From positions 62,001 to 126,000 of the forward strand of contig PGZJ01000005.1 in NCBI GenBank assembly GCA_002840055.1: DNA of 64,000 nt, read 5' to 3'. Positions 16,292-49,472 of the stretch are shown piece by piece. The DNA is from Gammaproteobacteria bacterium HGW-Gammaproteobacteria-11. Its GTDB lineage: Bacteria; Pseudomonadota; Gammaproteobacteria; Pseudomonadales; Pseudomonadaceae. The number at the start of each line of letters is the position of its first letter. The first letter of the stretch is position 1. The notes under the pieces were generated by a model. The model was not told where the DNA came from, did no database searches, and was given only the letters and a program-made list of their open reading frames with translations. Both the position numbers and the translations under genes were made by a program.

Positions 16292-16294
16292 GAC

Positions 16295-17458
16295 CTAGCG
16301 CAATTCACTGATGACATCGCTACCAGGCACACCGGGCAGGCCAAGCACAAACTCGACCCACACCGGCTTCTGGTAGTCGTCCATGGACAATGACGTGTCC
16401 GGTTCGATATTCAGCAGGATCATCTGGTTCTGTTGATTGACCGAGGCGCTGACCAGGCGGCCACTGATCGCCTGCTCAGCACCGTAGGGCTGCAAGCTGA
16501 CGCGCTGAGTGCGACGCAGGGTGTCGAGCTTTTCAAATGGCACGCTGGCCTGAACAAACATCGGCTGGTCGTTCGGCAGCAGATGCAACAATGGATCACC
16601 CTTGTAGCCAAAGCCGTTCATCCGGCTGCCGGGGTAAAACACCGTGCAATCACAGGGGCTGGAGATCACCGTTTCAATATTGGTGCGGCCCAGCAGCGCC
16701 TCGACATCACCCGGCGCCAGGTCCATCATCGCAGCGATATCAGCCGGCGTGGTGATACTGGTGCTCAGCTGGGTTGAAATGCTCGCCAGCGGCTGGCCGG
16801 TGGTCACCTGGGTCTGCCCTTCAGGCACCAGAAAGCGCACGTTACCGTTCTCCGGCATGCTGACGATAAAGCTGTTGGCACTGACCAGTGCCTGGCTGGC
16901 CGGAATGCGGAACATCAGTTCATAGGCCTTGAACAGCACATAGGCCAGCGCCAGCAGACCGATCAGCATAAATACCAGCGAGCCGGCAGCCGCCTTCAGC
17001 CTTTCACCCGGCGTGCGATGGGTACTGTGCTTCTGCTTGCGCTCCTTGATGTAGTTTTCCCGCTGCATGACATTGAACAGACCATTGATGTCAGCGATTT
17101 CACCGGACATATACGAAGAAATCAGATAACGCAGGATGTCGGCTTTCTGCGGATCCAGATCGACAAACTGGGTGCCTACCTGATCACCGTGCTGGGACAC
17201 CACCTTGACCTTGGCCTTGAAGCTCAGATCAACCCGGTTCATCCCCAGGGTGATGGCCACGTCATACAGACTGCCCATCTTCAGTTGCTCGGGATAACTC
17301 AGCCCGATGCCACCCAGGGAGATATCCTGCACATCACAAAGGATGCTTTCCCCCTGGCTACCAGTCAGTCGGGCCTGCGCCGGAATGCGGGTACGAATAT
17401 GCTGACGCTCGTCGATTGCCTCGTGGACAACCTGATCTTTAAGAATTGATGTGCTCAT
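16295..17458 (-). CDS. alg44: c-di-GMP receptor / alginate co-polymerase Alg44
   Basis: A 387-residue protein (usual 389). The cytoplasmic N-terminal PilZ domain shows the RxxxR motif at residues 18-22 and DISLGG at 45-50, both needed for c-di-GMP binding. One transmembrane segment lies around residues 160-180, followed by a periplasmic membrane-fusion-protein-like region with a biotinyl-lipoyl-type fold (MPENGNVRFLVPEGQTQVTT). Binding of c-di-GMP by Alg44 switches on polymerisation by Alg8. It starts 23 nt after alg8. Confidence 0.95.
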   Translation of the reverse strand: MSTSILKDQVVHEAIDERQHIRTRIPAQARLTGSQGESILCDVQDISLGGIGLSYPEQLKMGSLYDVAITLGMNRVDLSFKAKVKVVSQHGDQVGTQFVDLDPQKADILRYLISSYMSGEIADINGLFNVMQRENYIKERKQKHSTHRTPGERLKAAAGSLVFMLIGLLALAYVLFKAYELMFRIPASQALVSANSFIVSMPENGNVRFLVPEGQTQVTTGQPLASISTQLSTSITTPADIAAMMDLAPGDVEALLGRTNIETVISSPCDCTVFYPGSRMNGFGYKGDPLLHLLPNDQPMFVQASVPFEKLDTLRRTQRVSLQPYGAEQAISGRLVSASVNQQNQMILLNIEPDTSLSMDDYQKPVWVEFVLGLPGVPGSDVISELR

Positions 17459-17481
17459 GTCCTTTGCCCCTAATCCATAAT

Positions 17482-19044
17482 TCAGAGTTGCGAAATATCG
17501 AGCATTGCCGATATGACCCCGAAGAAAATGACGATGGATGACACCAGCATCATTTTCGAGGTCCAGCGGTTCAGCCCCGCATCAAAATCATTGTTCTTCC
17601 CCAGCGTGGTTTTCTGCCGGGTCCAGCTTTGCTGATCCATGTGAAACATCGAATACACCTTCATCACCGACCCGACTATCTGGTTGTAATAAAGAACAAA
17701 TGGATACAGCGGGTGCACCGGATGCCGCGTCAGGAAAAACAGCAGGCACACCAGGGTGCGCGACAACAGAATCCAGAACAGGTAAATCAGCAGGTACTGA
17801 ATGCCCAGGAACAGACCGGCAACGATGGAGCCGGTCAGCCCCACCAGACAGGTCCACATGGAAATGCGCTGGTCATAGAGTACGTAGCTGGCAAACAGCC
17901 CCAGGCGCGACCAGCCCAGTTCGCGGGTGGCGCGGAAGTTCTGTCTGAGCGAGTTGCCATACCAGCGGTACATCAGCTGCCGCGTGGCACGGAAGAAGTT
18001 GCTGTCCGGCGGGTGCTCGACCGTCAGGGTATGGCTGTCGGGAACGTAGAAGGTATCCCAGCCGGCGCGCATCAGACTGAACCAGGATGACTTGTCATCA
18101 CCAGTCAGAAACTGGAAGCGACCCAGACGCCAGTGCTCAAGAAAGTCTGCCTCGACATCCTTGATGAACTCGGGCTCGGTCATGATGCTGGCGCGAAAAA
18201 ACGACAGGCGACCGGTCAGGGTCAGCACGCGCTTGGACAGCGACATGGAACACATGTTGATATGCCGCTGCACAAAGCGCATCGTGTGCCATTCGCGCAT
18301 CATCCGGCTGCCTTCCACCTCGCAGAACTCGTTGGTGGTGACACCCCCAACCGTGGGCAGGTAGGCAAACAACTTGACCGCACGCTCAATGCAACCCGGC
18401 AGCATGATGGTGTCACCATCCACTACGCCAACCACCGCGTCCTCAACCGGCATGCGTCTGGACAAGGCCCGAAAGGCATGGGCCAGGCCGTCACGCTTAC
18501 CGGTGCCACGGGCCCGGACAATGACCAGTTGGATATCATCGCGGTCGCGTATCTCATCGCGCATCAACTGCTTGATAAAGTTTTCATCAGCCTTTTCCAC
18601 AATCGAGGCGATAATGGTGCTCGGCACCGGCAGCTGCTGCAGCTCACGAAATACCGAGCGATAGACCTTGAAGGTGGTCTCCGTTGGAATGCGGAAACTG
18701 GTGACTACCATATACATATGTGACGGCAACGCAGCGTCACCCATTTTCTCCACTGCTCGGCGGATACGCGGGAAACGCCAATGCAGAAAATACATGCCGC
18801 GCAGATAATGGGTAATAGCGTTGGTGTAACGCCAGATCCCCAGGGCGCCAATCAGGAAGATGAACTTGTGGTGCGCCGGATCCAGATAGCTCGGATCGAC
18901 CATATTCGAGGCCAACGCAATCAGGGCGAACAAACAGGCCCAGCCACAGAGACTGCGCCAGCCCGGTGTATAAAAATCCGTTTCCATGAAATCGCGGGGG
19001 CCGAGATCGACTGCCTCGGCACTCCGTACAGGGTCGTTTGTCAC
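17482..19044 (-). CDS. alg8: Alginate polymerase glycosyltransferase Alg8
   Basis: A 520-residue inner-membrane GT2-family glycosyltransferase that polymerises GDP-mannuronate. Two N-terminal membrane segments (residues 30-50 and 57-75) precede the cytoplasmic catalytic domain, which has the DGD motif (VVDGDTIM), an acidic segment VEADFLEHW, TGDD and an R/QxxRW-type motif (QLMYRWYG). C-terminal membrane helices follow. The start is GTG, overlapping the algA stop as GTGA, so algA and alg8 are translationally coupled; this junction does not exist in the canonical order, where alg8 follows algD. Confidence 0.95.
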   Translation of the reverse strand: MTNDPVRSAEAVDLGPRDFMETDFYTPGWRSLCGWACLFALIALASNMVDPSYLDPAHHKFIFLIGALGIWRYTNAITHYLRGMYFLHWRFPRIRRAVEKMGDAALPSHMYMVVTSFRIPTETTFKVYRSVFRELQQLPVPSTIIASIVEKADENFIKQLMRDEIRDRDDIQLVIVRARGTGKRDGLAHAFRALSRRMPVEDAVVGVVDGDTIMLPGCIERAVKLFAYLPTVGGVTTNEFCEVEGSRMMREWHTMRFVQRHINMCSMSLSKRVLTLTGRLSFFRASIMTEPEFIKDVEADFLEHWRLGRFQFLTGDDKSSWFSLMRAGWDTFYVPDSHTLTVEHPPDSNFFRATRQLMYRWYGNSLRQNFRATRELGWSRLGLFASYVLYDQRISMWTCLVGLTGSIVAGLFLGIQYLLIYLFWILLSRTLVCLLFFLTRHPVHPLYPFVLYYNQIVGSVMKVYSMFHMDQQSWTRQKTTLGKNNDFDAGLNRWTSKMMLVSSIVIFFGVISAMLDISQL

Positions 19045-37148: not shown

Positions 37149-38057
37149 TCAGGCACCGGGGGAATAGTGTCGCTGGGCACTACCCGAGGCAATCAGACGT
37201 GACAGGTAATCCAGTTTCTGCGGATCCTGATCGACAAACTTGAGCGTCACCTTCAGCCACTCGCAATCGACGTTGACCTCAAGTGCCGCCACCGCATGTA
37301 CGTACGCGTTGATACGCGCGACTGACTTGTCACCTTCCTGCTCCAGATCCAGCACCCCACTCTCGAATACCTGGGGCAGGCGCTCACCACGCCGGACCAC
37401 TACCAACGCATCGCGCAAGCTCAAGGTCTTGATCACGCAGGGGAACTGTTCCCCCGCCAGACGCAGTTGTGCCTGACCCTTGACTGGCTGACTGGCTGCT
37501 GGTGGTTCAGTCGCCGCAGGTTTGGCGAAGGCCTGCGCGGCGCTGGGAGCAGCGGCTTTGGTAACGGGCGCGGCTGGTGCCGCCGGGGCTGGACGCCCGC
37601 CCATCAGGTTGGCAATCGAATCCTGGGCCGTCGGCCCGCTGGCCTGGGGCTGACGACCCATCAACTGCTCAAGCTTGCCGGTGCGCTGCAAGGCCTTCTT
37701 GACCTTGGCACTGAGCTGATCATTAGAGAAGGGCTTGGGGATATAATCGCTTACACCCGACTGTATGGCCTCGATGACATTCTCCTTGTCACCCCGGCTG
37801 GTCACCATGATAAAGGGCGTCTTGGCCGATTCCGGCTGGGCACGGAACCACTGCAGTAATTCCAGCCCGCTCATTTCCGGCATTTCCCAGTCACACAGAA
37901 TCAGGTCAAAACGCTGCCGACTGAGCAACTGCTGTGCTTTGCGACCATTCACCGCCTCTTCGATCTGCAGACCGGGAAACAGGCTGCGCAGCGCCTTTTT
38001 CACCAGATCACGGATAAAGGGTGCATCGTCCACTACCAGAATAGTCACCTTGGCCAT
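37149..38057 (-). CDS. Response regulator with PilZ-like C-terminal domain
   Basis: A 302-residue protein. The receiver domain has ILVVDDAPF at the N-terminus and Asp56 in LCDWEMPEMSGLELL. A Pro/Ala-rich linker (about 145-195) leads to a C-terminal domain that looks PilZ-like, including DPQKLDYLSRLIASG, which resembles DPQKADILRYLISSYMSG at the end of the Alg44 PilZ domain. The c-di-GMP-binding RxxxR and D/NxSxxG motifs are not obvious. It converges on phoR, as does a similar regulator in P. aeruginosa. The start at 38057 has AAAGAG upstream. Confidence 0.85.
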   Translation of the reverse strand: MAKVTILVVDDAPFIRDLVKKALRSLFPGLQIEEAVNGRKAQQLLSRQRFDLILCDWEMPEMSGLELLQWFRAQPESAKTPFIMVTSRGDKENVIEAIQSGVSDYIPKPFSNDQLSAKVKKALQRTGKLEQLMGRQPQASGPTAQDSIANLMGGRPAPAAPAAPVTKAAAPSAAQAFAKPAATEPPAASQPVKGQAQLRLAGEQFPCVIKTLSLRDALVVVRRGERLPQVFESGVLDLEQEGDKSVARINAYVHAVAALEVNVDCEWLKVTLKFVDQDPQKLDYLSRLIASGSAQRHYSPGA

Positions 38058-38191
38058 ATCACATCTCTTTAGCTGCCCATGCTGCAAGCTTAGCGCAGAC
38101 TGCCTGCAAACCACAGCCAACATGCAGACTGACAGGTCATAAAAAGCATGGAATCAATCTGCCAGCACACAAAATATTCATTTTGCCATCA

Positions 38192-38219
38192 TTGACAGTC
38201 TTTTGCCCTGAGCTATCGT
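38192..38219 (+). promoter_or_regulatory. Probable sigma-70 promoter of the 11-gene operon
   Basis: TTGACA (38192-38197), a 16-nt spacer and TATCGT (38214-38219) lie 88 nt upstream of the first gene of the operon. The surrounding DNA is AT-rich. Confidence 0.5.
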
Positions 38220-38306
38220 TACGCGAACCACCGTATTGCAAGCTAATTTATCGTCAGGATGCCGCCAGGCATCGCAGTCGTCGGTACCCAACATGGAGTG
38301 TGGGTC

Positions 38307-39134
38307 ATGGCGAAAGGCAAAGCATTAAACAAGGCTGATCAGGCCTTCCTCGAACACGTCAGGCGAACGCTGCTCAGACGCGGCTCACAGGGTGAGCAGG
38401 TGCGTTATCTGAACACCAGATTGCATGCTCTGGGTTTTCTGACCAAGGCCGCAGGCGATCTGTTTGATCTTGATACGCAACGCGCTGTGCGCAGTTTTCA
38501 AGCCTCTCAACTGGATGAACGCGGCCTGCCACTTGCGGCAGATGGACTGGTCGGGCCCTTGACCGCCTGGCGTCTGGTCCATATCGAGGTGCCTACGCCG
38601 CAGCCCGCCGAACAACCTATCCCCACACGCGTTCCCTCATTGCCTGCCGGCGGCTCCAAGCGTGGCCGTCAGGCCCTGCAGGTGGCCTTTGCCGAACGCG
38701 ATGCCGGCGCCCGGGAGATCGGCAGCAATAACAATGGCGAGTTCGTGAAGAAGTATCTGCACCCCAACGGCAAGCCGCCCCTGCCCTGGTGCGCCGGCTT
38801 TGTCAGCTGGTGCTACAGCCAGCACCCACAGGGCTGTCCGTACAACTACAGCCTGGGCGCGCGTGACATCCTGAACCAGTTTACCCGACGGGGATGGCGT
38901 ATCGATCCCAGCAAGGGGCAACTGCCCGGCCCCGGCGATATTGTGGTCTGGACTCGTGATGCCCCGGGCAACCCGCATGCCGGGCACATCGGCATGGTCG
39001 TTGAACTTAGTGAAGGCGGCATTCTGTATGTCATAGAGGGCAACAAAGGGCCCTTTCCAGCGCCGGTTCGGGTCTTTGACTATGTCTATTCACGGATGAA
39101 CAACCTGCTCGGTTTCGGACGCGTACCGGATTGA
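38307..39134 (+). CDS. Peptidoglycan-binding / CHAP-type amidase (operon gene 1)
   Basis: A 275-residue protein. Residues 25-92 form a peptidoglycan-binding domain of the PG_binding_1 type (GEQVRYLNTRLHALGF, TQRAVRSFQ, DGLVGPLTAWRL). Residues 120-270 resemble a CHAP/NlpC-like amidase with catalytic Cys162 (LPWCAGFVSWC), His227 (PHAGHIGMVVE) and YVIEGN. The predicted role is cutting peptidoglycan cross-links or stem peptides. No signal peptide is visible, so export must be by another route or by release. The ATG at 38307 has GGAG 8 nt upstream; an upstream ATG would add 16 residues. First gene of a tightly packed operon ending at 47988. Confidence 0.8.
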   Translation: MAKGKALNKADQAFLEHVRRTLLRRGSQGEQVRYLNTRLHALGFLTKAAGDLFDLDTQRAVRSFQASQLDERGLPLAADGLVGPLTAWRLVHIEVPTPQPAEQPIPTRVPSLPAGGSKRGRQALQVAFAERDAGAREIGSNNNGEFVKKYLHPNGKPPLPWCAGFVSWCYSQHPQGCPYNYSLGARDILNQFTRRGWRIDPSKGQLPGPGDIVVWTRDAPGNPHAGHIGMVVELSEGGILYVIEGNKGPFPAPVRVFDYVYSRMNNLLGFGRVPD

Positions 39135-39150
39135 GCAGCGGGAGAGCATT

Positions 39151-40266
39151 GTGCAGGAAGCCACCCAGACCAACCCAAGTGCCGATCAACGTCTGATCGT
39201 CGAATCTATCGGTTCCGCCAGCCCCGGACTCGCCGGCGTACTCGCCAGCCAGTTGGGCATGCCGCCTGCGCAGGTGGCCAATGCCCTGTACAAGGCCCCT
39301 GCGGTACTGATAGACAAGCTGCCCATGCCGCACGCACAAGGGCTGGCCGAGATACTCAGTAAGGCTGGCCTGGATATTCGCATCGAACCCAGCCAGGGAC
39401 CGGCACCGCGGACATCCAGCAGTCTGGATATTGCCCTGTACGTGCACGACCCAGCCTGCCTTGCCTCTTGCTGCGAGCGCCTCGCACGCTTTCTCGGTTG
39501 CCCGGCCGCCGCGGTTCAGAACATGTTGCTGGCACCCCCGGGGGTCATTCTTGGCGATGTAAGCCAAGCCACGGCCGAGGCCTTGCGGCGCCTGCTCGAT
39601 GATCTACCTGTGGAGCTGGTTTGTTCGGCACGGCAACAGGCCCGTTACAGCCTGTTTATCGATCGTCAGCAGGGCACCAGCCTGAACAGCCTGCTGGGCG
39701 ATCTGCAACGCATGGGTATCGATGCTGACGCCGCAGGCACGCTGTCAGGCGCCGAACTTGACCATCAGCAAGGCCAGTATCTATGGCGCCGGCATCAGTC
39801 CGCCGGTGGTCTTCGCCTGCTCGACAAGGCCTTCATGCGCTACGACCTGGTCCTCGAGCAAACAACCCCGGACAGCTGCCTTGAGCAGTTGCCAAGCCTG
39901 GCTGGGCTCCCGGCTGACCTGATCCCCTGCGTCATAGACAACCTGCCCGTGGTCGTCGAAGAAGGCATCAGCGCCCAGCAGTTGCAAGCACGCTTGAGTG
40001 CCTGGCGTGATGCCGGTATGCCGGTTCGTGCACAACTGGTCAGCCTGCGTTGCTGTCAGTTGATCATCGATGCCTGCCCACAACCCGCCCTGTGTCAGCA
40101 ATGGCTTCAGGCAGCCGGATTGCTGGATGCCAGCGAGCCGCGCCTGAATCTGCCCTGGCAATCCGCGCTCCTGTTCGGCGAACTGCTGCCGCGCTGGCTG
40201 CAATCCGGGCTCGACAGCCTAGATGCTGAGTACCGTTTCGAGGACAGCCCCCATGGCCGCGACTGA
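39151..40266 (+). CDS. Protein with three internal repeats, unknown function (operon gene 2)
   Basis: A 371-residue soluble protein starting with GTG. Three similar segments are visible: LGMPPAQVANALYKAPAVL (residues 35-53), LGCPAAAVQNMLLAPPGVI (115-133) and AGLPADLIPCVIDNLPVVV (251-269). Each is followed by a helix and a beta strand such as GLAEILSKAGLDIRIE. The pattern, helix-turn-helix followed by a strand after 'aL..aG..v', recalls the C-terminal domain of ribosomal L7/L12, which is inference. No signal peptide or membrane segment. Cysteines cluster at 106-117 and near 301-318. It overlaps the next gene by 14 nt. Confidence 0.6.
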   Translation: MQEATQTNPSADQRLIVESIGSASPGLAGVLASQLGMPPAQVANALYKAPAVLIDKLPMPHAQGLAEILSKAGLDIRIEPSQGPAPRTSSSLDIALYVHDPACLASCCERLARFLGCPAAAVQNMLLAPPGVILGDVSQATAEALRRLLDDLPVELVCSARQQARYSLFIDRQQGTSLNSLLGDLQRMGIDADAAGTLSGAELDHQQGQYLWRRHQSAGGLRLLDKAFMRYDLVLEQTTPDSCLEQLPSLAGLPADLIPCVIDNLPVVVEEGISAQQLQARLSAWRDAGMPVRAQLVSLRCCQLIIDACPQPALCQQWLQAAGLLDASEPRLNLPWQSALLFGELLPRWLQSGLDSLDAEYRFEDSPHGRD

Positions 40267-40831
40267 AAACAGTATCCGTCTGCATCTGGGCATTGCCGAG
40301 CAGGGCAAATTGCTGGCGCTCAAAGGTCAGCATGAGCCGGCCCTGGCGCATTATCGCGAAGCGCTGCGCATGGCTGTCAGCAGCGCTGCCCCTGAAGTGT
40401 TTTTCCGGCATTACACCCAGTGCGTCATGGAAAGTCTTGAACGCAGCGGCTCACTCGATGCCGTATTGCGCTACTGCGACGAAGCCGAAAGTCACTACCA
40501 GCGTATTGATTCACCCTTACCTGTGGTGGCCCGTGATCGCGCAGAAAATCATCAGCGCCGTGCCAGCATTCTATTGCGCATGGGCCGCCAGGCAGAGGCT
40601 ATCTCAGCCTTCGAGCAGGCCCTGAGTACAGCAGGCCAACACCCACTTCCCCTGACCAGCGAACTGCTTGGCTGGATCAAGCGCGGCCTGAGCGTCGGCG
40701 CCAGGCAACTGGACGAAGCTCAACGCCGACACCGTTATTACATCGTTCGCAAGGAGCTGGTTGATCCGACCCGCGCCATTGCCCTGCCCCCCGAACGGCT
40801 GAAAGCCGCCGGGATGGCCTCGCCACTCTGA
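40253..40831 (+). CDS. Small TPR-like helical protein (operon gene 3)
   Basis: A 192-residue helical protein. The repeat pattern GKLLALKGQHEPALAHYREAL (about residues 19-39) and RASILLRMGRQAEAISAFEQ (about 103-122) is typical of TPR helices. This suggests a chaperone or assembly factor for the operon's other products; that is inference. The ATG at 40253 lies inside the end of the preceding gene and has GAGGA upstream, indicating translational coupling. Confidence 0.65.
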   Translation: MAATENSIRLHLGIAEQGKLLALKGQHEPALAHYREALRMAVSSAAPEVFFRHYTQCVMESLERSGSLDAVLRYCDEAESHYQRIDSPLPVVARDRAENHQRRASILLRMGRQAEAISAFEQALSTAGQHPLPLTSELLGWIKRGLSVGARQLDEAQRRHRYYIVRKELVDPTRAIALPPERLKAAGMASPL

Positions 40832-40843
40832 CAGGAGCTGAAA

Positions 40844-42568
40844 ATGAGTCAATACAATGGGTTAAAACCGGGCGAGGTACTGGCCGATGCCAGTGTTGCC
40901 GAGTTCATTTCCAGTCTCGGCCTGGGTATCGCCAGGGCACAGCAGGCACTGGACGCCAACTCGATTGAACAGTTGGACAGCTTTATTACGCCGATTCCAG
41001 GCCTGGGTGGCAAAACGCTGATTGAAATGGGCTTCAGTCCGGCCTTCTACCACTATCAGCATGCCGACATCACCTGCTCCATGAATCTGCGCCTGAAAGT
41101 CGAAGAGAATACCGGCTGGGATTTGGGCGTGAACGCGGCCTATAACGGCACCTTGGGCAACACGGAATCATCAGAGAACAGCTCATCCAGCAGCGAAAGT
41201 GGTTCTAGTAGCGAGACCCGGACGCGCGAAGCGAGCCTGCAGATCACCTCACAATCCGCCGGAGAGGTGGTAGTCAACAATGCACGTATTGGCGTCACCG
41301 GTGCTGATCTGGAAGCACGCCTGAACAACCTGGTCGAGGCGCTCGCCGGCAACGCCGACATTGATGCGGTAGCCTTTGACCGCACCGAGACACCGATCAA
41401 TCCGACCACCGATGCCAATCCGGCACTGGTTGAATGCACACCCAATGCCGTGGCGTTCAAGGCCTTTGGTTATGCCAGCGGTTTTATCCGGATCGCCGCC
41501 AACTCGGCAACCAGCTTTGTCGTCAACCCCGACACCACGGTCGAGGTATCGCAATCCAACAGTGTTCGAAATTACGCCCGCAAGGTGCGCACGCACTTCG
41601 AAGACGCCGGTTTCGGTGCTCGGCACTACCCGCCGGGCTACCCGCTCGAGGATATTCTGTTTGATATCGACCGTGCCAATATTCGCGCTGACCAGTTACC
41701 CAAACTGCAGGAAATTGCCCTGTTGCTGGCCCGCAGTACCTTGCACTTCAAGATTGTCGGGCATGCTGATCCACCGGCATCGACCAGCTACAACCAGGAT
41801 CTCTCGGAAAGACGCGCCAATGAAGTCAAACGCCAGATGATTCGCATGGGCGTTCAGGCCAGTCAGATTACCACCGCCACCGGCGAAGGTGAGACCAACG
41901 CCAACCCGGAAAATCGTGAGGGCCTTCCCTATGACCAGGCCCACCGACGGGTGGAGATTTTGCTGGATATCGAGCTGATTCGGGTAGACGCCAACAACGG
42001 CCAAACCATCACCGGTGTCAGTCCGGATCGGCGTGATGGCTCCGAGCCCAGCACCAATGGCTGGGTGCATACCTTTGGCGAGCAGACACTGGAGGGTGTC
42101 AATGGCAAGAGCGTTACCGCTGAAGGCCGCAGCTGGGGCTTATCCGGCACGGCGGTGGATGGCCATGCCGCCAACAGCCCACAGGCCTTTGCCAAGAACC
42201 TGGCGAACAGCATCAATGCCGACAGCGGCAGCCAGATAGCGGCCTCGGCAGGGGGCGCCATCTGTAACCTGGCACGTAAAACCGATCCAATCAGCCTGCG
42301 CCTTATAACCCGCTCCAGCCGAGATGTCCGGGTCAGCAGCAGCGAAAGCATTACCGTCACGCAACAGTTCGAACGCACCACCGCAGAGCGTGAGACCACC
42401 CAACGCACGGGCAACCACACAGTGGCCGTGGGGGCGACATTCAGCATGCATGAAAGCAAGAAGTTCGAACTGGAGGTAACCGGCAACTCGTCAATTTCAG
42501 CACGCCTGGTCTCGATTCCGGCTCCGCCGGAGTTTCTCGAGACCATCCGCACTTTCCTGGAGGACTAA
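40844..42568 (+). CDS. Module protein with inserted OmpA domain (operon gene 4)
   Basis: A 574-residue protein. Residues 15-90 match the first two blocks of the operon's shared module (FISSLGLGIARAQQALD; LIEMGFSPAFYHY) and residues 535-570 match the third (KKFELEVTGNSSISARLVSI, then PAPPEFLETIR). Between them lie a Ser-rich segment (109-125), a beta-rich region, an OmpA-C peptidoglycan-binding domain (268-375: ILFDIDRANI, GHADPPASTSYNQDLSERRA), and another beta-rich region. The OmpA domain thus appears inserted within the module. No signal peptide is present, which is unusual for an OmpA-domain protein. Confidence 0.75.
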   Translation: MSQYNGLKPGEVLADASVAEFISSLGLGIARAQQALDANSIEQLDSFITPIPGLGGKTLIEMGFSPAFYHYQHADITCSMNLRLKVEENTGWDLGVNAAYNGTLGNTESSENSSSSSESGSSSETRTREASLQITSQSAGEVVVNNARIGVTGADLEARLNNLVEALAGNADIDAVAFDRTETPINPTTDANPALVECTPNAVAFKAFGYASGFIRIAANSATSFVVNPDTTVEVSQSNSVRNYARKVRTHFEDAGFGARHYPPGYPLEDILFDIDRANIRADQLPKLQEIALLLARSTLHFKIVGHADPPASTSYNQDLSERRANEVKRQMIRMGVQASQITTATGEGETNANPENREGLPYDQAHRRVEILLDIELIRVDANNGQTITGVSPDRRDGSEPSTNGWVHTFGEQTLEGVNGKSVTAEGRSWGLSGTAVDGHAANSPQAFAKNLANSINADSGSQIAASAGGAICNLARKTDPISLRLITRSSRDVRVSSSESITVTQQFERTTAERETTQRTGNHTVAVGATFSMHESKKFELEVTGNSSISARLVSIPAPPEFLETIRTFLED

Positions 42569-42571
42569 GCC

Positions 42572-43051
42572 GTGTCTGAAACCGTCAGTGTTACCCGCTC
42601 TCTGGTCAGCGCCCCGCTGCCACAGATCATTGAGCGGCTGGGTTTGGCGATTGCCCAGGCCCAGTCAGCGCTGGACACCAACTCGGTCGAGGTCGCCAAA
42701 CAGATGGCCGAGACCCCGGTGGAGCTCAACGGCCAGACCTACAATCTGCTGACCCTGGGCTTTGCTCCAAGCTTCTATGCCTTCACCGAAGCCACAGTGG
42801 AGGCCAAGCTGTCTTTCAGCATGTCGGAAACCACCGAAACCTCGGTTTCGGCAGGCGTAACGGCACGGGTCAACTATGGCGTAGTGATGGTTGCGGCCAG
42901 CGTTGACGTGTCCTACGCACGAAAATTTTCGGTGTCCGCTGAGGGCACCAGTTCAATCGCCGCCCGGCTGGTCTCGCTGCCCGCTCCGGAGGCTTTCAGT
43001 GAAGTACTACGTCGGCTGCATGACAAGGGCCTGCAAAATCAGGATGACTAA
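42572..43051 (+). CDS. Minimal shared-module protein (operon gene 5)
   Basis: A 159-residue protein that is the shortest full version of the shared module. Block 1: APLPQIIERLGLAIAQAQSA followed by LD (residues 11-32). Block 2: LLTLGFAPSFYAFTEATVEA (about 50-69). The middle is beta-rich and Ser/Thr-rich. Block 3: KFSVSAEGTSSIAARLVSLP with PAPEAFSEVLR (about 112-145). Start GTG with GGAGG upstream, 3 nt after the previous stop. It has no signal peptide and no known family that I can name; it has a broad resemblance in plan to DUF2589-type proteins, unverified. Confidence 0.75.
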   Translation: MSETVSVTRSLVSAPLPQIIERLGLAIAQAQSALDTNSVEVAKQMAETPVELNGQTYNLLTLGFAPSFYAFTEATVEAKLSFSMSETTETSVSAGVTARVNYGVVMVAASVDVSYARKFSVSAEGTSSIAARLVSLPAPEAFSEVLRRLHDKGLQNQDD

Positions 43052-43069
43052 GGTCAAAGGAGCACCACA

Positions 43070-43780
43070 ATGAGTATTGGTCAGGAACTACTTAACGTCC
43101 CCATGGGGGACATGATCCGGCAAATGGCCTTTGCCATCGCCGAAGCCCAGGTCAAGCTGGACGAAGCGTCGATTGAAGTGGCGGAAATGATGGGCGGTCT
43201 GCGTACCATCTATGATGACGCCGGCAACATTACCTTTGATGACAGCCGGATTTTCTTTGGCCATGAGTACATGACCGAAAGTGCAGCCAACTCGCTTGCC
43301 GCCATTGATGAAGGTTACACCAAGGTGGTCAAGGAAGCGGTCAAGCACAAGGATGTCGACGGCATGGTGCGGGTGCCTACCCGTCTGTCAATGCTGGAAC
43401 TGGGGTTTGCTCCGGTGTTCTACAACTTTGTCGACACCATTATCGAAGTCAAGATCGCCATCAAGATCACTCGCACCCGCGAATTCACCCACAGCACCAG
43501 CAAAAACAACAAGAACACCAGCAACCGAAACAAATCCAGCGGTCTGTTCGGCAAGGTATTCGGTGGCAAGAACAGCAACTCCTCGACCGTCGCCACCAGT
43601 CAGGTCGATGCGACCTACTCGTCCAAGTATTCCTATTCCGCGGAAGGCTCCAGCCTGTTGCGCACCAAACTGTCTCCGGTACCACCACCGCCGATTCTGG
43701 AAGAGCGTATCCGCGCCATGATGGAAGAGGCCGCGGCCCGTCGCCAGCCAGCTGAACCGGTAGTTGAAGACGACAATTGA
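43070..43780 (+). CDS. Shared-module protein with insert (operon gene 6)
   Basis: A 236-residue paralogue. Block 1: VPMGDMIRQMAFAIAEAQVK (10-29); an insert of about 75 residues; block 2: MLELGFAPVFYNFVDTIIEV (108-127); an Asn/Lys/Ser-rich loop (147-170); block 3: YSSKYSYSAEGSSLLRTKLS followed by PVPPPPILEERIR (183-216). The C-terminus is acidic. A strong AAGGAG precedes the ATG. Closest in the operon to the next gene, with which it shares AEGSS..RTKL and ILEERIR. Confidence 0.75.
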   Translation: MSIGQELLNVPMGDMIRQMAFAIAEAQVKLDEASIEVAEMMGGLRTIYDDAGNITFDDSRIFFGHEYMTESAANSLAAIDEGYTKVVKEAVKHKDVDGMVRVPTRLSMLELGFAPVFYNFVDTIIEVKIAIKITRTREFTHSTSKNNKNTSNRNKSSGLFGKVFGGKNSNSSTVATSQVDATYSSKYSYSAEGSSLLRTKLSPVPPPPILEERIRAMMEEAAARRQPAEPVVEDDN

Positions 43781-43810
43781 GTGCCCACAGCCTGAACAGG
43801 AGAATAGACC

Positions 43811-44338
43811 ATGTCTGTAGGCACTGAACTACTGAATGCACCATTCCCGATGATGGTGCGCAATCTCGGGGTCGGTATAGCCGAGGCACAGCTGGAACTG
43901 GATCTGGTGTCACTGCGCATTGCGCGGATGATGGCAGGCTATGCCAGTGGCACCGATGAAGACGAAGACGGTGGCAGCGACCAGCCGTACAAGGTCGAGT
44001 TCAGCAATGGCAAGTCATACAGCCTGCTGGAGCTCGGTTTCATGCCGACCTTCTATCAGTTTGTCGATACCGTCATCGAGTTGAAAATGTCGATCAGCAT
44101 GAGCAGCGAACGCAGTTCGACCTACAAGCGCAGCCAGGTCAAAGCCAGTGCCAAGGGGGTGGGCTTGCCTTTCTTTGCTTCAGGTTCGGTCACTGCCAGT
44201 TCAGTCAGCGCCAGCTTCGCCAGCAAGTATCAGTATTCGGCGGAGGGTAGCTCGGTCATGCGGACCAAACTGGTAACGGTACCGGCACCGGCCATTCTCG
44301 AGGAGCGCATCCGCAAGATGATCGAAGGTGAGGAATGA
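43811..44338 (+). CDS. Shared-module protein (operon gene 7)
   Basis: A 175-residue paralogue of the preceding gene. Block 1: APFPMMVRNLGVGIAEAQLE (10-29); an acidic insert (GTDEDEDGGSD); block 2: LLELGFMPTFYQFVDTVIEL (74-93); block 3: ASKYQYSAEGSSVMRTKLVT, then VPAPAILEERIRKMI (136-170). CAGGAG precedes the ATG. Its stop overlaps the next start as ATGA. The near-identical block order suggests genes 6 and 7 arose by a recent duplication. Confidence 0.75.
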   Translation: MSVGTELLNAPFPMMVRNLGVGIAEAQLELDLVSLRIARMMAGYASGTDEDEDGGSDQPYKVEFSNGKSYSLLELGFMPTFYQFVDTVIELKMSISMSSERSSTYKRSQVKASAKGVGLPFFASGSVTASSVSASFASKYQYSAEGSSVMRTKLVTVPAPAILEERIRKMIEGEE

Positions 44339-45153
44339 GCCGCAAGACCTGGCGTGATCTGGCCCGGCAGCAGGCAGGCAGTGACAGTGCCTCTGCTGCG
44401 GTACCGACGGACCTTGGCAAAGTCGCCGAGCAGGTGCCGGCACTTCAGTCATTGCTGGAAAAGCGCCGGGAATTGGAATCGCGTATGCAGTCACTGGGCG
44501 CCAGCGCACCAGCTGCAGCGCCGAGCACTGATCCACGCTTCCCGGTCGCCAGCATGGCCGAACGACGCGCTGAGCTGGAGCGCTGGACCCGCCAGCATGA
44601 GCAGCGCACCACCAACCCGCTGGCGGCGCTTGATCAACGTCCTCGACAGGCCGCGCGTGACGGCTGGCAGCAGCTCCGCGACAGTCAGCTGGGCCAGGCG
44701 GTTGAACGCGCTCGTGGCGTTCTCGCGCAGAAGCAGGATCTGATGCAGCGCCTTGATCAGCGCGTCAGTGATGCCCGCAACAAGGCACAGGAGCGCTTGC
44801 GCAATAACCGCGAGCAGGCCATTCAGGCCCCTCTTGCCAGGCCACTCGACAACCCGATTACTGAACGTCTTGATGCCCCCATGCAGCCAACCCGAACTGA
44901 ACGCGCCACGACACGGGACAGCTTTGACCAGCGCTATGAGCAACGCATGAAGAAAATGCTGGGCATTGCCTCGGGTTCGACTGACGAGCTGGCCGAGCGC
45001 CGCGAAAAGCAACGTGAACAACAGCGAGAACAATTACGAGAGCAGCGTCTGGAGGCTCGCCGGGCCGAGCGGCAAGCCGAGCGCCAGGACATGATGAAGC
45101 GTGAGCGAGCCCAGGAACGCCGCGCCCAACGACCCCAATTGAGTACTGACTGA
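44335..45153 (+). CDS. Arg/Gln/Glu-rich coiled-coil protein (operon gene 8)
   Basis: A 272-residue, highly charged, probably all-helical protein. Arg, Gln and Glu dominate, especially after residue 210 (REKQREQQREQLREQRLEAR), predicting a long coiled coil. The middle (PLAALDQRPRQAARDGWQQL) is also helical. No module blocks, signal peptide or known domain are visible. It may be a scaffold, tape-measure-like or linker component; this is speculation from composition and position. It overlaps the preceding gene by 4 nt and ends 2 nt before the next. Confidence 0.65.
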   Translation: MSRKTWRDLARQQAGSDSASAAVPTDLGKVAEQVPALQSLLEKRRELESRMQSLGASAPAAAPSTDPRFPVASMAERRAELERWTRQHEQRTTNPLAALDQRPRQAARDGWQQLRDSQLGQAVERARGVLAQKQDLMQRLDQRVSDARNKAQERLRNNREQAIQAPLARPLDNPITERLDAPMQPTRTERATTRDSFDQRYEQRMKKMLGIASGSTDELAERREKQREQQREQLREQRLEARRAERQAERQDMMKRERAQERRAQRPQLSTD

Positions 45154-45155
45154 CC

Positions 45156-45881
45156 ATGAGCAAATCCAGCCAATTCGTTTCCAGCTCCATCGAGCAGGTT
45201 CTGCTCGGGCTCGCGCGCGGTCTGCGCGACGCCCAGGCCGTCCTCGATGAGATGCCGCCAACCGACAGCTATGGACGTCCACGCAGCAGCTACCACCTGC
45301 CCTATCTGGATTTCACCATCAAGGCGACCATGGAAACAACCCAGCAGGGCAATGAATCCGAGCCGAGCAGAAACCTGGGCGTCAACAGTGCCAGAATCAA
45401 GAAACTGCCCTTGATGCATCTGAAATTACCCAGCTTGAAGGCCAATGCCGAGCCATCGAACAACTCGACAGAGCTGACCAGCACCTTCAGTGGACGGCTG
45501 GTCTCGATTCCACCGAGCAACAACCTGCCAACCAATCGGCTGTTGACCCGGGCCATGACCGATGCGCAAAAGCCCGAGGTGCGACATATCCAGGTCAACT
45601 TGAGTAATACCGTTGGCGATCGGATCAGTGGCGCCGGCATCGAGTTCAATCTGGATATCGAAACCAGCCTCAAACTCAGCCAGTTGGCGGGCGTTGCCGC
45701 CAGTTTCAACGAAGACAAGCTCAAGGCAGCCGTGCGTTTCAGTCAGCGCGTGGTGATGACCGACGATGCCGGTGATGCCGCTATCGAGATCCAGCTGGAC
45801 AAAACCTTGCCGGCCAACGCCAATGTCGTGGTGCTGATCAGCAGTGGCCCGACCATGACCCAACTCATCCTCAGCCCGTAG
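45156..45881 (+). CDS. Partial-module protein with beta-sandwich tail (operon gene 9)
   Basis: A 241-residue protein. Residues 8-30 match module block 1 (SSSIEQVLLGLARGLRDAQA); block 2 is reduced to YHLPYLDFTIKATMETT; STFSGRLVSIPPSNN (about 108-122) is a short block 3. The C-terminal 100 residues (VRHIQVNLSNTVGDRISGAG onward, ending VVVLISSGPTMTQLILS) are beta-rich, like an Ig-type domain. It has no signal peptide. It is a diverged member of the operon's module family. Confidence 0.65.
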   Translation: MSKSSQFVSSSIEQVLLGLARGLRDAQAVLDEMPPTDSYGRPRSSYHLPYLDFTIKATMETTQQGNESEPSRNLGVNSARIKKLPLMHLKLPSLKANAEPSNNSTELTSTFSGRLVSIPPSNNLPTNRLLTRAMTDAQKPEVRHIQVNLSNTVGDRISGAGIEFNLDIETSLKLSQLAGVAASFNEDKLKAAVRFSQRVVMTDDAGDAAIEIQLDKTLPANANVVVLISSGPTMTQLILSP

Positions 45882-45891
45882 GAACACCTTC

Positions 45892-47274
45892 ATGCAATGG
45901 AGTATTACCGGCGTCGTGCTGGAAGCCGACGGCAAGCCTGCCACTGGACGCGTTCAGGTACAGATCTTTGACATCGGGCGCAAATCCTGGCGGGTTCTAG
46001 TACAAGGCGCGCTGAATGCCAAGGGCCACTTTGCACTTAAGACCAATCTGGTACCCGGTGGTCAGGCTCTACCGGCCATGCGCCTGTGCGAACCCGGCAA
46101 AGCCGGTGAGCCCACGCGGGTACTGGCCGAAGGCGGGCTGGTGCAACTTGCCTCAGCCACCGCCATAAGTCTGTCATTTGGCCAGGTTCAGCGTCTGGCC
46201 GACAATGCCGTCGCACGGAGCGATCGCACGGCCCCCTTCAGTCAGGCCGATGATTATTTGCTTGCCGGGGTGCCACGGCCGCCAACCCCCACTATCACGG
46301 CAGCCTCGGCGCGCATGGTCATGGCCGGCACGCCGATCACCGCCATGATTCAGCCCCAGGTCATGGAACAGCCAAGCACGGTACAACTGCGAATGAATGC
46401 GGACTTGAGCAAGCGCATTCAGGAGCAGGACATCGAGCTCAACCAGAAACAGGCGCAGATGGTCCGTCTGGAGCAAACCAGCTTGAAGGCCAACGAAGAG
46501 TTGCGGCTGGCCAACAACAAGATTGCGGCACTGGAAAATCAGCTCAAGGTGCAACCCGCTCTCGGCGCCAACAAGCCGGTCAATGAGCAGTTCACCCTGG
46601 CCACTGAGACCATGAAGCTGAACCTCAACGAACAGATTATCCGTCAGGCAGCCGATTACGATATTCGCGCGCTGAAGCTGCAGCAGACCATCAATGCCAA
46701 GAATATTGAGCTTGCCAGCTATACCGAACGCCTGCAGGAACTGTCCAAGGTTTCCAGCGCCGCCATGGAAGAAGCCGCCAAGGCCAAGGCCGAAGCCGAC
46801 CAACTGAAACAGCAGATGAATACGCGGGTTTCTGCCGGCGAGCTGTACGCCACCATAGGCAAGCAGATCCAGGAAGCGCAATCGGCGCTGGTCAGTGAAC
46901 AGGTTCCTTACCGGCTGGGCAAGGTCTCGCTGAACCTCAAGACCCTGGTGTCCGGTAACCAGCTGACCATGCCAACCCTGGCTGACCTGCAAAACAAGGA
47001 TGCCTCGGGCATGTTCACGGATGTAAAGCTCGAGTTTCTACCCGAAGCAGACGAGCTGGTAGAAGAGGAACTGATCAGCGTGCCCGATTTCAGCGACCTG
47101 ACCGAAACCCTCGCGCGTCGATTGGCACGCGATATGGGTCTGAATCTGGATGCCGCCTATCAGAGCATTACCGATCCCAAACAACCCATCGGCCAGGCCA
47201 TTCGCCAGCTCCCAGCCAAAGGCACGCAGGTCGCGCCAGGTGAGAGCGTCATGGTGGTCTTTTACCAAGCCTAA
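45892..47274 (+). CDS. Multi-domain protein with coiled coil and PASTA-like end (operon gene 10)
   Basis: A 460-residue protein. Residues 1-60 look like a transthyretin/carboxypeptidase-regulatory type beta-sandwich (WSITGVVLEADGKPATGRVQ; NAKGHFALKTNL). Residues 170-310 form a coiled coil (QEQDIELNQKQAQMVRLEQT). Around 318-350, AGELYATIGKQIQEAQSALV and YRLGKVSLNLK resemble module blocks 1 and 2 in reduced form. The last 65 residues are PASTA-like: ISVPDFSDLTETLARRLARD, then QLPAKGTQVAPGESVMVVFY. PASTA domains bind peptidoglycan or beta-lactam-like ligands. No signal peptide is seen. Confidence 0.65.
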   Translation: MQWSITGVVLEADGKPATGRVQVQIFDIGRKSWRVLVQGALNAKGHFALKTNLVPGGQALPAMRLCEPGKAGEPTRVLAEGGLVQLASATAISLSFGQVQRLADNAVARSDRTAPFSQADDYLLAGVPRPPTPTITAASARMVMAGTPITAMIQPQVMEQPSTVQLRMNADLSKRIQEQDIELNQKQAQMVRLEQTSLKANEELRLANNKIAALENQLKVQPALGANKPVNEQFTLATETMKLNLNEQIIRQAADYDIRALKLQQTINAKNIELASYTERLQELSKVSSAAMEEAAKAKAEADQLKQQMNTRVSAGELYATIGKQIQEAQSALVSEQVPYRLGKVSLNLKTLVSGNQLTMPTLADLQNKDASGMFTDVKLEFLPEADELVEEELISVPDFSDLTETLARRLARDMGLNLDAAYQSITDPKQPIGQAIRQLPAKGTQVAPGESVMVVFYQA

Positions 47275-47292
47275 GCACACAGGATAACTGCA

Positions 47293-47988
47293 ATGACAAC
47301 CATCAAGAATCTGGTCAGCGACGTGATGGCAGCCCCCATTGGCGAGATCATTGCCGCCGTTGGTCAGGGTGTTGCTCAGGCTCAGGAGGCGCTGGATCAG
47401 GGTTCACTGGCCAAGGTGCTGGCTATTTACAGTGAGGGCGGCGATGCTGAGCTGCGTCTGCTGCAGGAGATTGGCTACCAACCAACCTTCTATGCCTTGC
47501 CGGAAACAACCGGTGAGATCCAGGTTGCCCTCAGTATAAGTGGCGATACCCGTAGCCAGGCGGCCCAGAAACCTGCCCCGGCAATCCAGCCTGTCACCCC
47601 GGCAAAGCTGAACATCAGCGCGTTGAACACCAGCCGAATACTGCACTCGCAACTGCCTGCAGCACGCCTTTATGCCGCACCGGTAAACGCAGACCTGACC
47701 AACCGATATGGTTTCCAATCCACTGCGGCCGCCAAGATCACCTTCAAAATCGTGCCGGTGCCAGGCCCATCCCGGGCCAGCGAGATTCGTGTTGTACCCG
47801 ATCTGATTGGCAAAACCTGGGAAGAGGCACTGCAACTGGCTGAACTGCTTGAGCAGGAGCTGACCGCCCTAGATAAACAGGGCAACCCCTTGGAGGAGCC
47901 TGGTTTGAAGAAAAAGATCAGCGAACAAACACCGGCCGCCGGCAGCATTGTCATGGTCGGTGCCGCTATCGAGGTAAAGGTACCCTGA
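47293..47988 (+). CDS. Shared-module protein with C-terminal PASTA domain (operon gene 11)
   Basis: A 231-residue protein. Block 1: MAAPIGEIIAAVGQGVAQAQ followed by EALD (12-35); block 2: LLQEIGYQPTFYALPETTGE; a Pro/Ala-rich linker; a reduced block 3 (YGFQSTAAAKITFKIVPVPG). Residues 165-231 form a PASTA-like domain (VVPDLIGKTWEEALQLAELL; ISEQTPAAGSIVMVGAAIEV). This is the last gene of the operon, with AGGA upstream of its ATG. The PASTA end, the OmpA domain of gene 4 and the CHAP enzyme of gene 1 all point at the cell wall. Confidence 0.75.
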   Translation: MTTIKNLVSDVMAAPIGEIIAAVGQGVAQAQEALDQGSLAKVLAIYSEGGDAELRLLQEIGYQPTFYALPETTGEIQVALSISGDTRSQAAQKPAPAIQPVTPAKLNISALNTSRILHSQLPAARLYAAPVNADLTNRYGFQSTAAAKITFKIVPVPGPSRASEIRVVPDLIGKTWEEALQLAELLEQELTALDKQGNPLEEPGLKKKISEQTPAAGSIVMVGAAIEVKVP

Positions 47989-48024
47989 TCACAGAACTGA
48001 CTGGTTGACAGCAACACCAGTAAT

Positions 48025-48055
48025 TCGCGCATCCCGGCCTCGCCCGGATGCGCGA
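48025..48055. terminator. Hairpin between the operon and the convergent alcohol dehydrogenase gene
   Basis: TCGCGCATCC (48025-48034) pairs perfectly with GGATGCGCGA (48046-48055) around an 11-nt loop. It lies 36 nt past the last operon stop and just beyond the dehydrogenase stop at 48064, so it may serve both strands; U-runs are lacking. Confidence 0.55.
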
Positions 48056-48063
48056 GCACTGTG

Positions 48064-49221
48064 TTACAGCGTGCCGTTCAAGGCCTTGAGGAACAACTGC
48101 TGGTATTGCTCGGCATCCAGTGCAACAGCATTGGTACGCGCCGTGACATCCTTGGCGGACATCTGACCAATCAACTCCGCCTGGGCATCATCAATATTGA
48201 TTTCCGCCAGGGTATGGGGCAAACCCAGCTCTGCACGCAAGTCCAGCACCCAGTCCAGCACACCATCGAAGCCCGGCTTGGCCAGATCCAGGTAGCGCGC
48301 CATGCGTTCCATTTCCGGCTCAATGGCAGCGCGGTTAACCTGCAGCACATAGGGCATCATGATCGCATTGAGCAGGCCGTGGTGCGCGTCATACAGCGCG
48401 CCCAAGCTGTGGGATACCGCATGGATCGCGCCCAGGCCACGCTGGAACGCTGCCGCACCCATGGTCGAGGCTACCTGCATTTGCAGCCGGGCATGAATAT
48501 CGCTGCCTTCACGGGTGGCCTGCGGCAAAAACTCCTTGACCAGGCGCATGCCCTCAAGCGCGATGCCCTCGGCCATGGGATGATACAGCGGCGTGCAATA
48601 GCCTTCGAGGTTATGCGCCAGGGCGTCCATACCCGTGGCTGCAGTGAGCTTGGAAGGCAGACCCACTGTCAGCTCCGGATCAAGGATGACTATGGCTGGA
48701 ACCAGTTTGGCGTGGAAAATGAGACGTTTGATGTGATTCTCATCATCGGTAATCACCGACGCCTGACCGACTTCCGAGCCAGTGCCCGCAGTCGTCGGGA
48801 CAGCAACCACCGGCAGCATCTTGGCGGCATCAACTTTGGAGGGGTTCTGAGCCTCCCACAGGCTGATGCTCTGATGGGCAATCAGCGCAATGGCCTTGGC
48901 AGCGTCAATGGCAGAGCCGCCGCCAAAGGCAATCACGCCATCATGGTTACCCGACCTCAGCGCTTCAACACCGGCGGCAACGTTGGCACCTGTTGGATTG
49001 CCCTTGACCGCACTGAAGATACCCGCGTTCAGACCGGCCTCTCGCAGACTCTGCAAGCTGGCATCCACCATTGGCAATGCCGCCAAGCCTGGATCAGTCA
49101 CCAATAACGGCGCTTTCATGCCCAGTTGGGAGCAGGCCTTGGCCAGTTCACGGATGCGCCCGGCACCGACGCGAATTGATGTCGGGTAATGCCAGTTGAT
49201 GCTGTAGGATGAAATCTCCAT
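48064..49221 (-). CDS. Iron-containing alcohol dehydrogenase
   Basis: A 385-residue group III (Fe-ADH) oxidoreductase. The NAD-binding GGGS motif is in VIAFGGGSAIDAAKAIALI; metal ligands appear in TGMDALAHNLEGY, HAVSHSLGALYDAHHG and HGLLNAIMMP, which contain the Asp and His residues used by the family. The substrate is not predictable. Related proteins of similar length occur in the ethanol-oxidation regulon of P. aeruginosa (ErcA type), but no other genes of that system are near. The ATG at 49221 has GGAGA upstream; the longer frame reaching 49356 is not supported. Confidence 0.9.
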   Translation of the reverse strand: MEISSYSINWHYPTSIRVGAGRIRELAKACSQLGMKAPLLVTDPGLAALPMVDASLQSLREAGLNAGIFSAVKGNPTGANVAAGVEALRSGNHDGVIAFGGGSAIDAAKAIALIAHQSISLWEAQNPSKVDAAKMLPVVAVPTTAGTGSEVGQASVITDDENHIKRLIFHAKLVPAIVILDPELTVGLPSKLTAATGMDALAHNLEGYCTPLYHPMAEGIALEGMRLVKEFLPQATREGSDIHARLQMQVASTMGAAAFQRGLGAIHAVSHSLGALYDAHHGLLNAIMMPYVLQVNRAAIEPEMERMARYLDLAKPGFDGVLDWVLDLRAELGLPHTLAEINIDDAQAELIGQMSAKDVTARTNAVALDAEQYQQLFLKALNGTL

Positions 49222-49472
49222 GGTGTCTCCAGTGCAGGCTGTAATGGGAAAGGGTGCAAGCAATGCCCACTTCCGGGCAGAAGGGGATACAAAATGCTTT
49301 TGTGTCCCGAAACATACCCAAACATGACCTCCGAGTCCATGCCCCATCTGCGACAATAGGTCACTTGAATGTTGCTCGGCTACACTGCATGTTATGGGGT
49401 AATTGCGCCAGACTCCGTTTACAACGCATAAGCAGGTCCACCTGCCTTCTCGATCAGCCTTGAGGATTGACC

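Follow-up and report, generated by a model that had tools for sequence, protein, structure and literature searches.

What is made by a compact row of genes whose products carry cell-wall-binding domains and no recognised export signal? The question is raised by eleven plus-strand genes, g1 to g11 (Table 1), in a stretch of 64,000 nucleotides (nt) of Gammaproteobacteria bacterium HGW-Gammaproteobacteria-11 (contig PGZJ01000005.1, positions 62,001 to 126,000 of the forward strand), which is called the window here. Ten of them, g2 to g11, form a block that is conserved in order in other genomes. The best explanation, which is tentative and somewhat short of an even chance, is that g2-g11 encode a multi-subunit assembly that would be made in the cytoplasm and would act on peptidoglycan after lysis or delivery; it is held at this level because the evidence does not firmly separate it from its rivals.

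Conservation and distribution of the ten-gene block

The 84,980 GTDB species genomes were scanned with an alignment of the protein module described below, which gave at least 165 encoding stretches. Gene order was read from the best 80, so the order statistics lean towards close relatives, and genes were assigned by family hidden Markov models (HMMs) on six-frame open reading frames (ORFs), with gene starts chosen by script. All ten genes stand in one order in 51 of the 80 loci, 40 of which show exactly g2-g3-g4-g5-g6-g7-g8-g9-g10-g11, while 11 show it if module paralogues may swap labels. Twelve loci run into the locus end, and L015, in which all ten genes are in order, is counted with them owing to a stray distant g10 label. 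The other 17 deviate: five differ solely by an unrecognised g8 (L051, L052, L066, L068, L071), three myxobacterial loci have an extra g10 label (L075, L077, L085), L039, L064, L074 and L084 are partial or rearranged, and the others have split or doubled labels. Gaps in the 40 exact loci are short (336 of 360 are 60 nt or less, median 9 nt), and 116 of them are overlaps.

Complete blocks are found in Pseudomonadota, Bacteroidota and SAR324 and near-complete ones in Myxococcota, Acidobacteriota and Balneolota, and the loci of Chloroflexota, Thermodesulfobacteriota and Latescibacterota are cut or partial. Ten genes that keep their order across more than one phylum must bring their carriers some benefit. 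The preliminary description of this DNA had presented eleven tightly packed same-strand genes as one operon. The packing is borne out by ORF analysis, with gaps of 30 nt or less or overlaps throughout 38259-47988, and the set recurs in other genomes beyond one phylum, but g1 falls outside the conserved core.

The g2 tree suggests, from sequence, that the block spread by transfer between lineages. Its 20 Bacteroidota rows lie on a single branch, Pseudomonadota need four changes and Myxococcota three, and Paracoccaceae group with Marinobacterium and Saccharospirillum, on long branches that make some placements unsure. Paracoccaceae are Alphaproteobacteria, and the other two genera are Gammaproteobacteria. 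The block is rare: among 398 sampled genomes of the phylum, the window's own is the sole match. Of 37 genomes of the genus, 8 have a g2 match at E below 1e-100, and L006-L008 from the species scan come from this group. In all eight the block adjoins the same response-regulator gene and is bordered on its other side by the dehydrogenase, cytochrome or phoU gene; in carrier G519 the site is split over two contigs. In the six non-carriers examined, of 29, the response-regulator and other-side neighbours directly adjoin and the site is empty. The g1 gene is present in two of the eight carriers, the window genome and G519.

A plasmid search gave one record with a match, a reduced cluster in the Sphaerotilus plasmid NZ_CP035710.1 (L140, 13643-16422). 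It holds two module proteins and, beside them, a stand-alone g10-like segment protein that matches the g10 HMM at 5.4e-9, together with a coiled-coil-like protein; the rest of the block is missing.

The helix-plus-hairpin module and its relatives

Five products, g4, g5, g6, g7 and g11, are paralogues by BLAST within the window, which agrees with the paralogous family noticed earlier, and profile comparison links them (g4 to g5 at 99.5%, others in Table 1). Profiles add g9 as a probable sixth member, which hhalign pairs at 92.1% with g5 and 95.4% with g11 and at 53.9%, 33.7% and 16.1% with g4, g7 and g6. The PASTA domain is shared by g10 and g11 (profile 96.7%).

The AlphaFold2 model of g5 consists of a helix (16-47), two long strands (67-93 and 112-137) and a second helix (140-157), with a mean predicted local distance difference test (pLDDT) score of 70.5. 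The g4 model has the same frame with a well-folded insert at about 128-507, between long strands 68-89 and 538-558, which would place the OmpA domain of g4 where the hairpin tip would be. No credible Pfam family was found in 98 g5/g7 proteins, for which 25 of 41 low-scoring families were inspected (alignment A5 holds 96 of 157 rows plus two window rows). A PDB sequence search returned two chance-level matches for the module (E 0.27 and 0.51) and none for g9, and VIA-align of g5 gave no significant match. The weak rows of the g5 structure searches contain the flagellar MS-ring (FliF S-ring), lysenin, aerolysin and binary-toxin pore hairpins, which offer weak context. Module proteins are without a family in the libraries searched, despite the conserved block.

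Among the closest known families is DUF2589 (PF11655), a domain of unknown function, with which homology of the module is probable from profiles. A DUF2589 profile, built from 15 rows from genomes of the phylum, one of them a cut copy of another, matches g5 at 92.7% (E 4.4e-7, 148 columns) and g7 at 87.8% (168 columns), co-linearly and over nearly full length, and g6 at 73.3%; smaller DUF2589 sets give 60% and 47% to g5 and 88% and 94% to g7. The likeness does not extend to g4 and g11 (12.9-13.7%) or g9 (6.9%). The Pfam model PF11655 matches none of the 11 window proteins at E up to 1 and nothing in the window's genome (75.9% complete), is absent among the 25 inspected families of the g5/g7 proteins, and matches one of 51 g9 proteins at 0.061. 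Like the module genes, DUF2589 genes stand next to one another, as neighbouring pairs in six of the eight genomes with a match (L092-L096, L141-L150), and the fold may often work as hetero-oligomers.

In a seventh genome (G364) two matches seemingly lie in one ORF, and at L098 (7843-12314) a DUF2589 pair stands beside an amidase-looking gene and one that resembles DUF2235 by eye.

Among the other core genes, g2 encodes the triple-repeat protein of the preliminary description, and its repeats are now recognised as similar to the C-terminal domain of L7/L12: its profile (alignment A9, 53 of 72 rows plus the window row) matches PDB 1ctf at E 1e-6. The profile also matches rplL-sized ORFs in the genus (E 1.6e-5 to 7.5e-4), which we infer to be rplL. 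The g2 gene is recognised in 72 of the 80 loci, and in g8 the conserved columns occur in patches.

An internal segment of g10 aligns with the whole of Trypco2 (PF19631; hhalign 69.5%, E 4.2e-5), which is a domain named in passages of a work on predicted conflict systems (PMC7159879). Four of 51 g9 proteins also match Trypco2 (best E 0.014), and the other block families reach 12% or less by profile. The window block has no trypsin-like peptidase or other conflict-system gene. One protein of L159 (about 822 onwards) begins like a lipoprotein and shows two Trypco2-like segments by eye.

The set was compared with Pfam (g1-g11), PHROGs and PADLOC (g1-g10) and NCBIfam (all but g3), with the flanks sampled, and none of these libraries assigns it to a defence or secretion system or to one with a tail, sheath or baseplate; Pfam has no credible family for g2 and g5-g9 of the window. 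Full-text searches of one open-access library gave no description of the block among the papers listed (subscription papers and preprints lie outside this scope). By the libraries used it stands far from every known kind. It would work somewhat like tailocins, extracellular contractile injection systems (eCIS) and type VI systems, in that it would be multi-subunit, has no recognised Sec signals and combines wall-binding and wall-cutting parts; it differs from them because no sheath, tube, baseplate or AAA+ family is found among the core genes. The likeness to phage-tail particles that had been drawn earlier is hence an analogy only.

That the block is a degenerate remnant of a phage, tailocin, eCIS or type VI system is highly improbable. 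Matches of this kind exist: g1 resembles endolysins and a tail lysozyme in PHROGs, g10 a tape-measure family (0.038) and g6 a head-tail adaptor (0.099), and the OmpA domain of g4 matches the NCBIfam type VI TssL OmpA model at 5.4e-11, below the cut-off of that model. The strong ones are explained by shared CHAP and OmpA domains and the others are near chance. A phage origin was rejected, as g7 was not found in 50,697 phage records and 12 pattern matches of the module in viral contigs gave no confirmed case; the intact block in 51 loci also argues against a remnant.

Wall-binding domains, hydrolases and the proposed assembly

The domain calls made earlier hold in Pfam, with CHAP and PG_binding_1 in g1, TPR in g3, OmpA in g4 and PASTA in g10 and g11. 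The OmpA domain of g4 has the fold and the diaminopimelate-binding Asp and Arg, matched by motif and spacing, and these residues are kept in 46/49 and 49/49 g4 proteins (alignment A6, 48 of 59 rows plus the window row, picked by length and thus restricted to OmpA-bearing g4 proteins). Unlike the usual Pal/OmpA C-terminal domain on a lipoprotein or porin, it lies inside a module protein that has no recognised signal. PASTA is found in all 49 g10 proteins and CarboxypepD_reg in three of them, and a transthyretin-like PDB chain matches g10 at E 0.026. With E up to 0.1 allowed, 17 of 51 g9 proteins match Big_1 (best 1.4e-6), and the window g9 is not among them (A7 holds 48 of 68 rows and A8 50 of 71, each plus the window row). 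In two loci, L065 and L064, g10 carries LamG lectin domains; the g10 protein of L065 (2807-7444, an Anaerolineales metagenome-assembled genome, MAG) has 1546 residues with six Laminin_G_3 stretches and PASTA.

A cytoplasmic scaffold or organelle, in which OmpA, PASTA and immunoglobulin (Ig) folds serve as generic protein-binding domains, would agree with the L7/L12-like and TPR proteins, the coiled coils and the lack of recognised export signals. This alternative is given a low probability, because the diaminopimelate-binding residues are conserved, lectin domains occur in two loci and peptidoglycan hydrolases adjoin the block in the window and elsewhere.

The hydrolase of the window, g1, is accessory and outside the conserved core. 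It matches PF01471 (1.9e-6) and PF05257 (3.6e-11) in Pfam, and endolysins (best 3e-9) and the family 'baseplate hub subunit and tail lysozyme' (1.9e-7) in PHROGs. A peptidoglycan hydrolase gene lies -28 to 414 base pairs (bp) from the block in the window and in 10 of the 80 loci (Table 1). M15 and M74 belong to one clan, so at least three unrelated hydrolase folds are represented. Hydrolases of different families recur at the block ends in lineages that are separate, which suggests peptidoglycan or its vicinity as the place where the block acts. The adjacent hydrolases of the ten loci have no evident signal peptide (seven scanned, the rest by eye), and HMMs built from them gave no further catalytic match in the loci (758 kilobases, kb, of flanks, of which 86 kb lie within 600 bp of the block); hydrolases further out could be missed because these models were built from few sequences. 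The enzyme is optional, as 70 of the 80 loci have none in these searches.

Further matches of the PG_binding_1 model fall on the gene that comes next in L051, on two genes of L073, of which one is separated from the block by 4 bp, and, with a weak score, on L042. The L073 genes (14295-18292, a SAR324 MAG) are large, carry PG_binding_1-like segments (E about 4e-4) and directly follow the block. Amidase_2 and CobU are joined in a single ORF directly after the block in L010 (13894-15000), L012 (13928-14962) and L014 (13900-14952), which is an odd fusion.

The block could instead be a device for programmed lysis or abortive infection, in which the module proteins would form a sensor or an inner pore and the wall hydrolase would be the effector that lyses the producer itself under attack. 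The sporadic distribution, the endolysin-like hydrolases of several families and the suggestive link of g10 to Trypco2 point in this direction, and phage lysis cassettes are similar in that g1 matches endolysins and its substitutes elsewhere likewise have no evident signal. Such a device is decidedly unlikely, since no PADLOC system was matched (g1-g10; the best match is ZorB, 1.1e-4, to the OmpA domain, besides weak coiled-coil matches), the window block is free of sensor, nuclease and protease domains in Pfam and NCBIfam, and most loci have no hydrolase; phage lysis cassettes also differ in that the window block has no holin-like membrane protein and its hydrolase is accessory. Should the block be a lysis device, it would add a new type to programmed lysis.

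Hydropathy was scanned crudely, with thresholds of the analysts' own choice. None of the eleven window proteins shows a stretch that resembles a signal or a membrane span, whereas the control PhoR scores 2.31; this agrees with the earlier remark that no signal is visible. A device in the producer's own envelope, whose subunits would enter the periplasm by an unrecognised route to anchor or remodel the wall, is unlikely on this ground and because no secretion gene recurs in the flank clusters or in the families of 50 flanking ORFs. It would fit the OmpA, PASTA and Ig-like domains, which normally function in the envelope, the kept diaminopimelate residues and the wall hydrolases that adjoin some loci.

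For the cytoplasm-made assembly, five to six paralogous helix-plus-long-hairpin subunits (g4-g7, g11 and probably g9) would build a hetero-oligomer in the cytoplasm, with g2, g3 and g8 (L7/L12-like, TPR and coiled-coil-like) acting as assembly or scaffold proteins. It would display OmpA at the g4 hairpin tip, PASTA on g10 and g11, the Ig-like region on g9 and, in few lineages, LamG on g10, and its purpose would be to meet peptidoglycan, the producer's own or that of other cells, beyond the cytoplasm. Since an export signal is recognised on none of the subunits here, the assembly would most likely be set free by lysis or be delivered as a particle; where an endolysin-like hydrolase adjoins the block, as the CHAP protein g1 does in the window, it would supply lysis or wall cutting. 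Block conservation, paralogy, kept binding residues, hydrolase association and the lack of a recognised signal are shown here, and oligomer, localisation, route and target are inferences that go beyond them. The multi-subunit, wall-directed part of the preliminary description gains support in this way from the paralogous subunits, the kept peptidoglycan-binding residues and the adjacent hydrolases of several families.

Several observations weigh against this assembly. Among the relatives' proteins, 43 of 789 exceed the membrane threshold (g2 17/74, g9 9/77, g4 6/70, g5 4/97, g10 3/82, g3 2/76, g6 1/84, g11 1/74) and 35 of 789 the N-terminal threshold (g4 15, g2 8, g10 5, g5 2, g6 2, and one each for g8, g9 and g11). 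No holin-like membrane protein is present in the window block, the part of the genome in which one was looked for, so the lysis route is without a shown exit. By profile g10 lies outside the module family (5.3% or less to g5-g7), the hairpin tip of g5 has pLDDT under 50, the g4 model stays mostly below 70 in its module parts, and Foldseek of g5 gave no significant match (best E 0.14). The hairpin strands are weakly amphipathic (mean z 0.95 and 0.44), which counts against a membrane beta-barrel, and for this reason none is claimed. The OmpA insert is not universal, as the gene at the g4 position has about 170-240 residues in L051, L066-L068, L070, L071 and L073; the 70 loci without a hydrolase belong here as well; and ligands other than the wall could be bound by the PASTA, OmpA and Ig folds.

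A bolder form of the proposal is doubtful. It sees an undescribed nanomachine unrelated to phage tails, a DUF2589-like hairpin hetero-oligomer showing several wall- or glycan-binding domains, with a swappable hydrolase in some lineages, which would be released without Sec or Tat and would attack or dock on the peptidoglycan of other cells. If the block does make a released wall-binding assembly, peptidoglycan-targeting particles would have a route other than the phage one, and a DUF2589-like fold would gain its first testable function. Either outcome, assembly or lysis device, is testable in ordinary environmental bacteria.

Locus layout and flanking genes

The features of the window locus and the hydrolases beside related blocks are given in Table 1. 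The spacing of g1 and g2 is 16 nt, and the remaining nine are -44, 12, 3, 18, 30, -4, 2, 10 and 18 nt. The promoter described earlier in front of the genes is present as a consensus match, but promoter-like sites are not above chance in the region (one found against 3.2 expected from shuffles). The hairpin described behind them exists as a perfect inverted repeat, but it has no T-run and a terminator scan of the region does not list it. A phoR gene lies upstream, and cytochrome-like and phoU-like genes, named by eye, lie downstream.

Table 1. Features of the window locus and wall hydrolases adjoining the block in related loci
Feature	Position or locus	Strand	Description
Response-regulator gene	37149-38123	-	Upstream flank of the block
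Promoter-like site	38192..38219	+	TTGACA-16-TATCGT, consensus match
g1	38259..39134	+	PG_binding_1 and CHAP peptidoglycan hydrolase, accessory, non-core; alternative ATG 38307
g2	39151..40266	+	L7/L12 C-terminal-domain-like repeats; core
g3	40223..40831	+	TPR protein; core; Pfam TPR_2 2.1e-8
g4	40844..42568	+	Module protein; folded insert of about 380 residues with Pal/OmpA peptidoglycan-binding domain between two long hairpin strands
g5	42572..43051	+	Minimal module protein: helix, long beta hairpin, helix
g6	43070..43780	+	Module paralogue; hhalign to g7 100%, E 6.5e-71
g7	43811..44338	+	Module paralogue; hhalign to g5 100%, E 2.7e-53
g8	44335..45153	+	Charged, coiled-coil-like (by eye); core gene least often recognised
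g9	45156..45881	+	Module-like N-terminus and Big_1-like Ig region
g10	45892..47274	+	N-terminal beta domain (transthyretin/CarboxypepD_reg-like), coiled coil, Trypco2-like segment, PASTA
g11	47293..47988	+	Module and C-terminal PASTA; PF03793 4.9e-7; hhalign to g7 99.8%
Inverted repeat	48025-48034 / 48046-48055		Perfect, 10 bp, after g11, without T-run; read from the sequence
Iron alcohol dehydrogenase gene	48064-49356	-	Downstream flank of the block
CHAP beside block	Window, L069, L020		L069 2.1e-8; L020 6.4e-4, below Pfam's cut-off, opposite strand
M15_4 beside block	L041, L043		Pfam; both initially labelled g1 by HMM
Amidase_2 beside block	L009, L010, L012, L014, L071		
M74 beside block	L051		

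A conserved twelfth gene is not supported, as the strong matches among 26 downstream ORFs compared are between near relatives. The flank clusters (first 46) consist of Halomonas synteny, kinase- or regulator-type genes and a few other common genes. The kinase/regulator-like cluster is found in the flanks of 12 loci (L006, L029, L038, L040, L042, L050, L058, L059, L061, L080, L081, L082), an association that may be chance because such genes are common. The family check of the flanks covered 50 of 175 flanking ORFs (A10), and the families listed for them have mostly ordinary housekeeping functions, each seen once.

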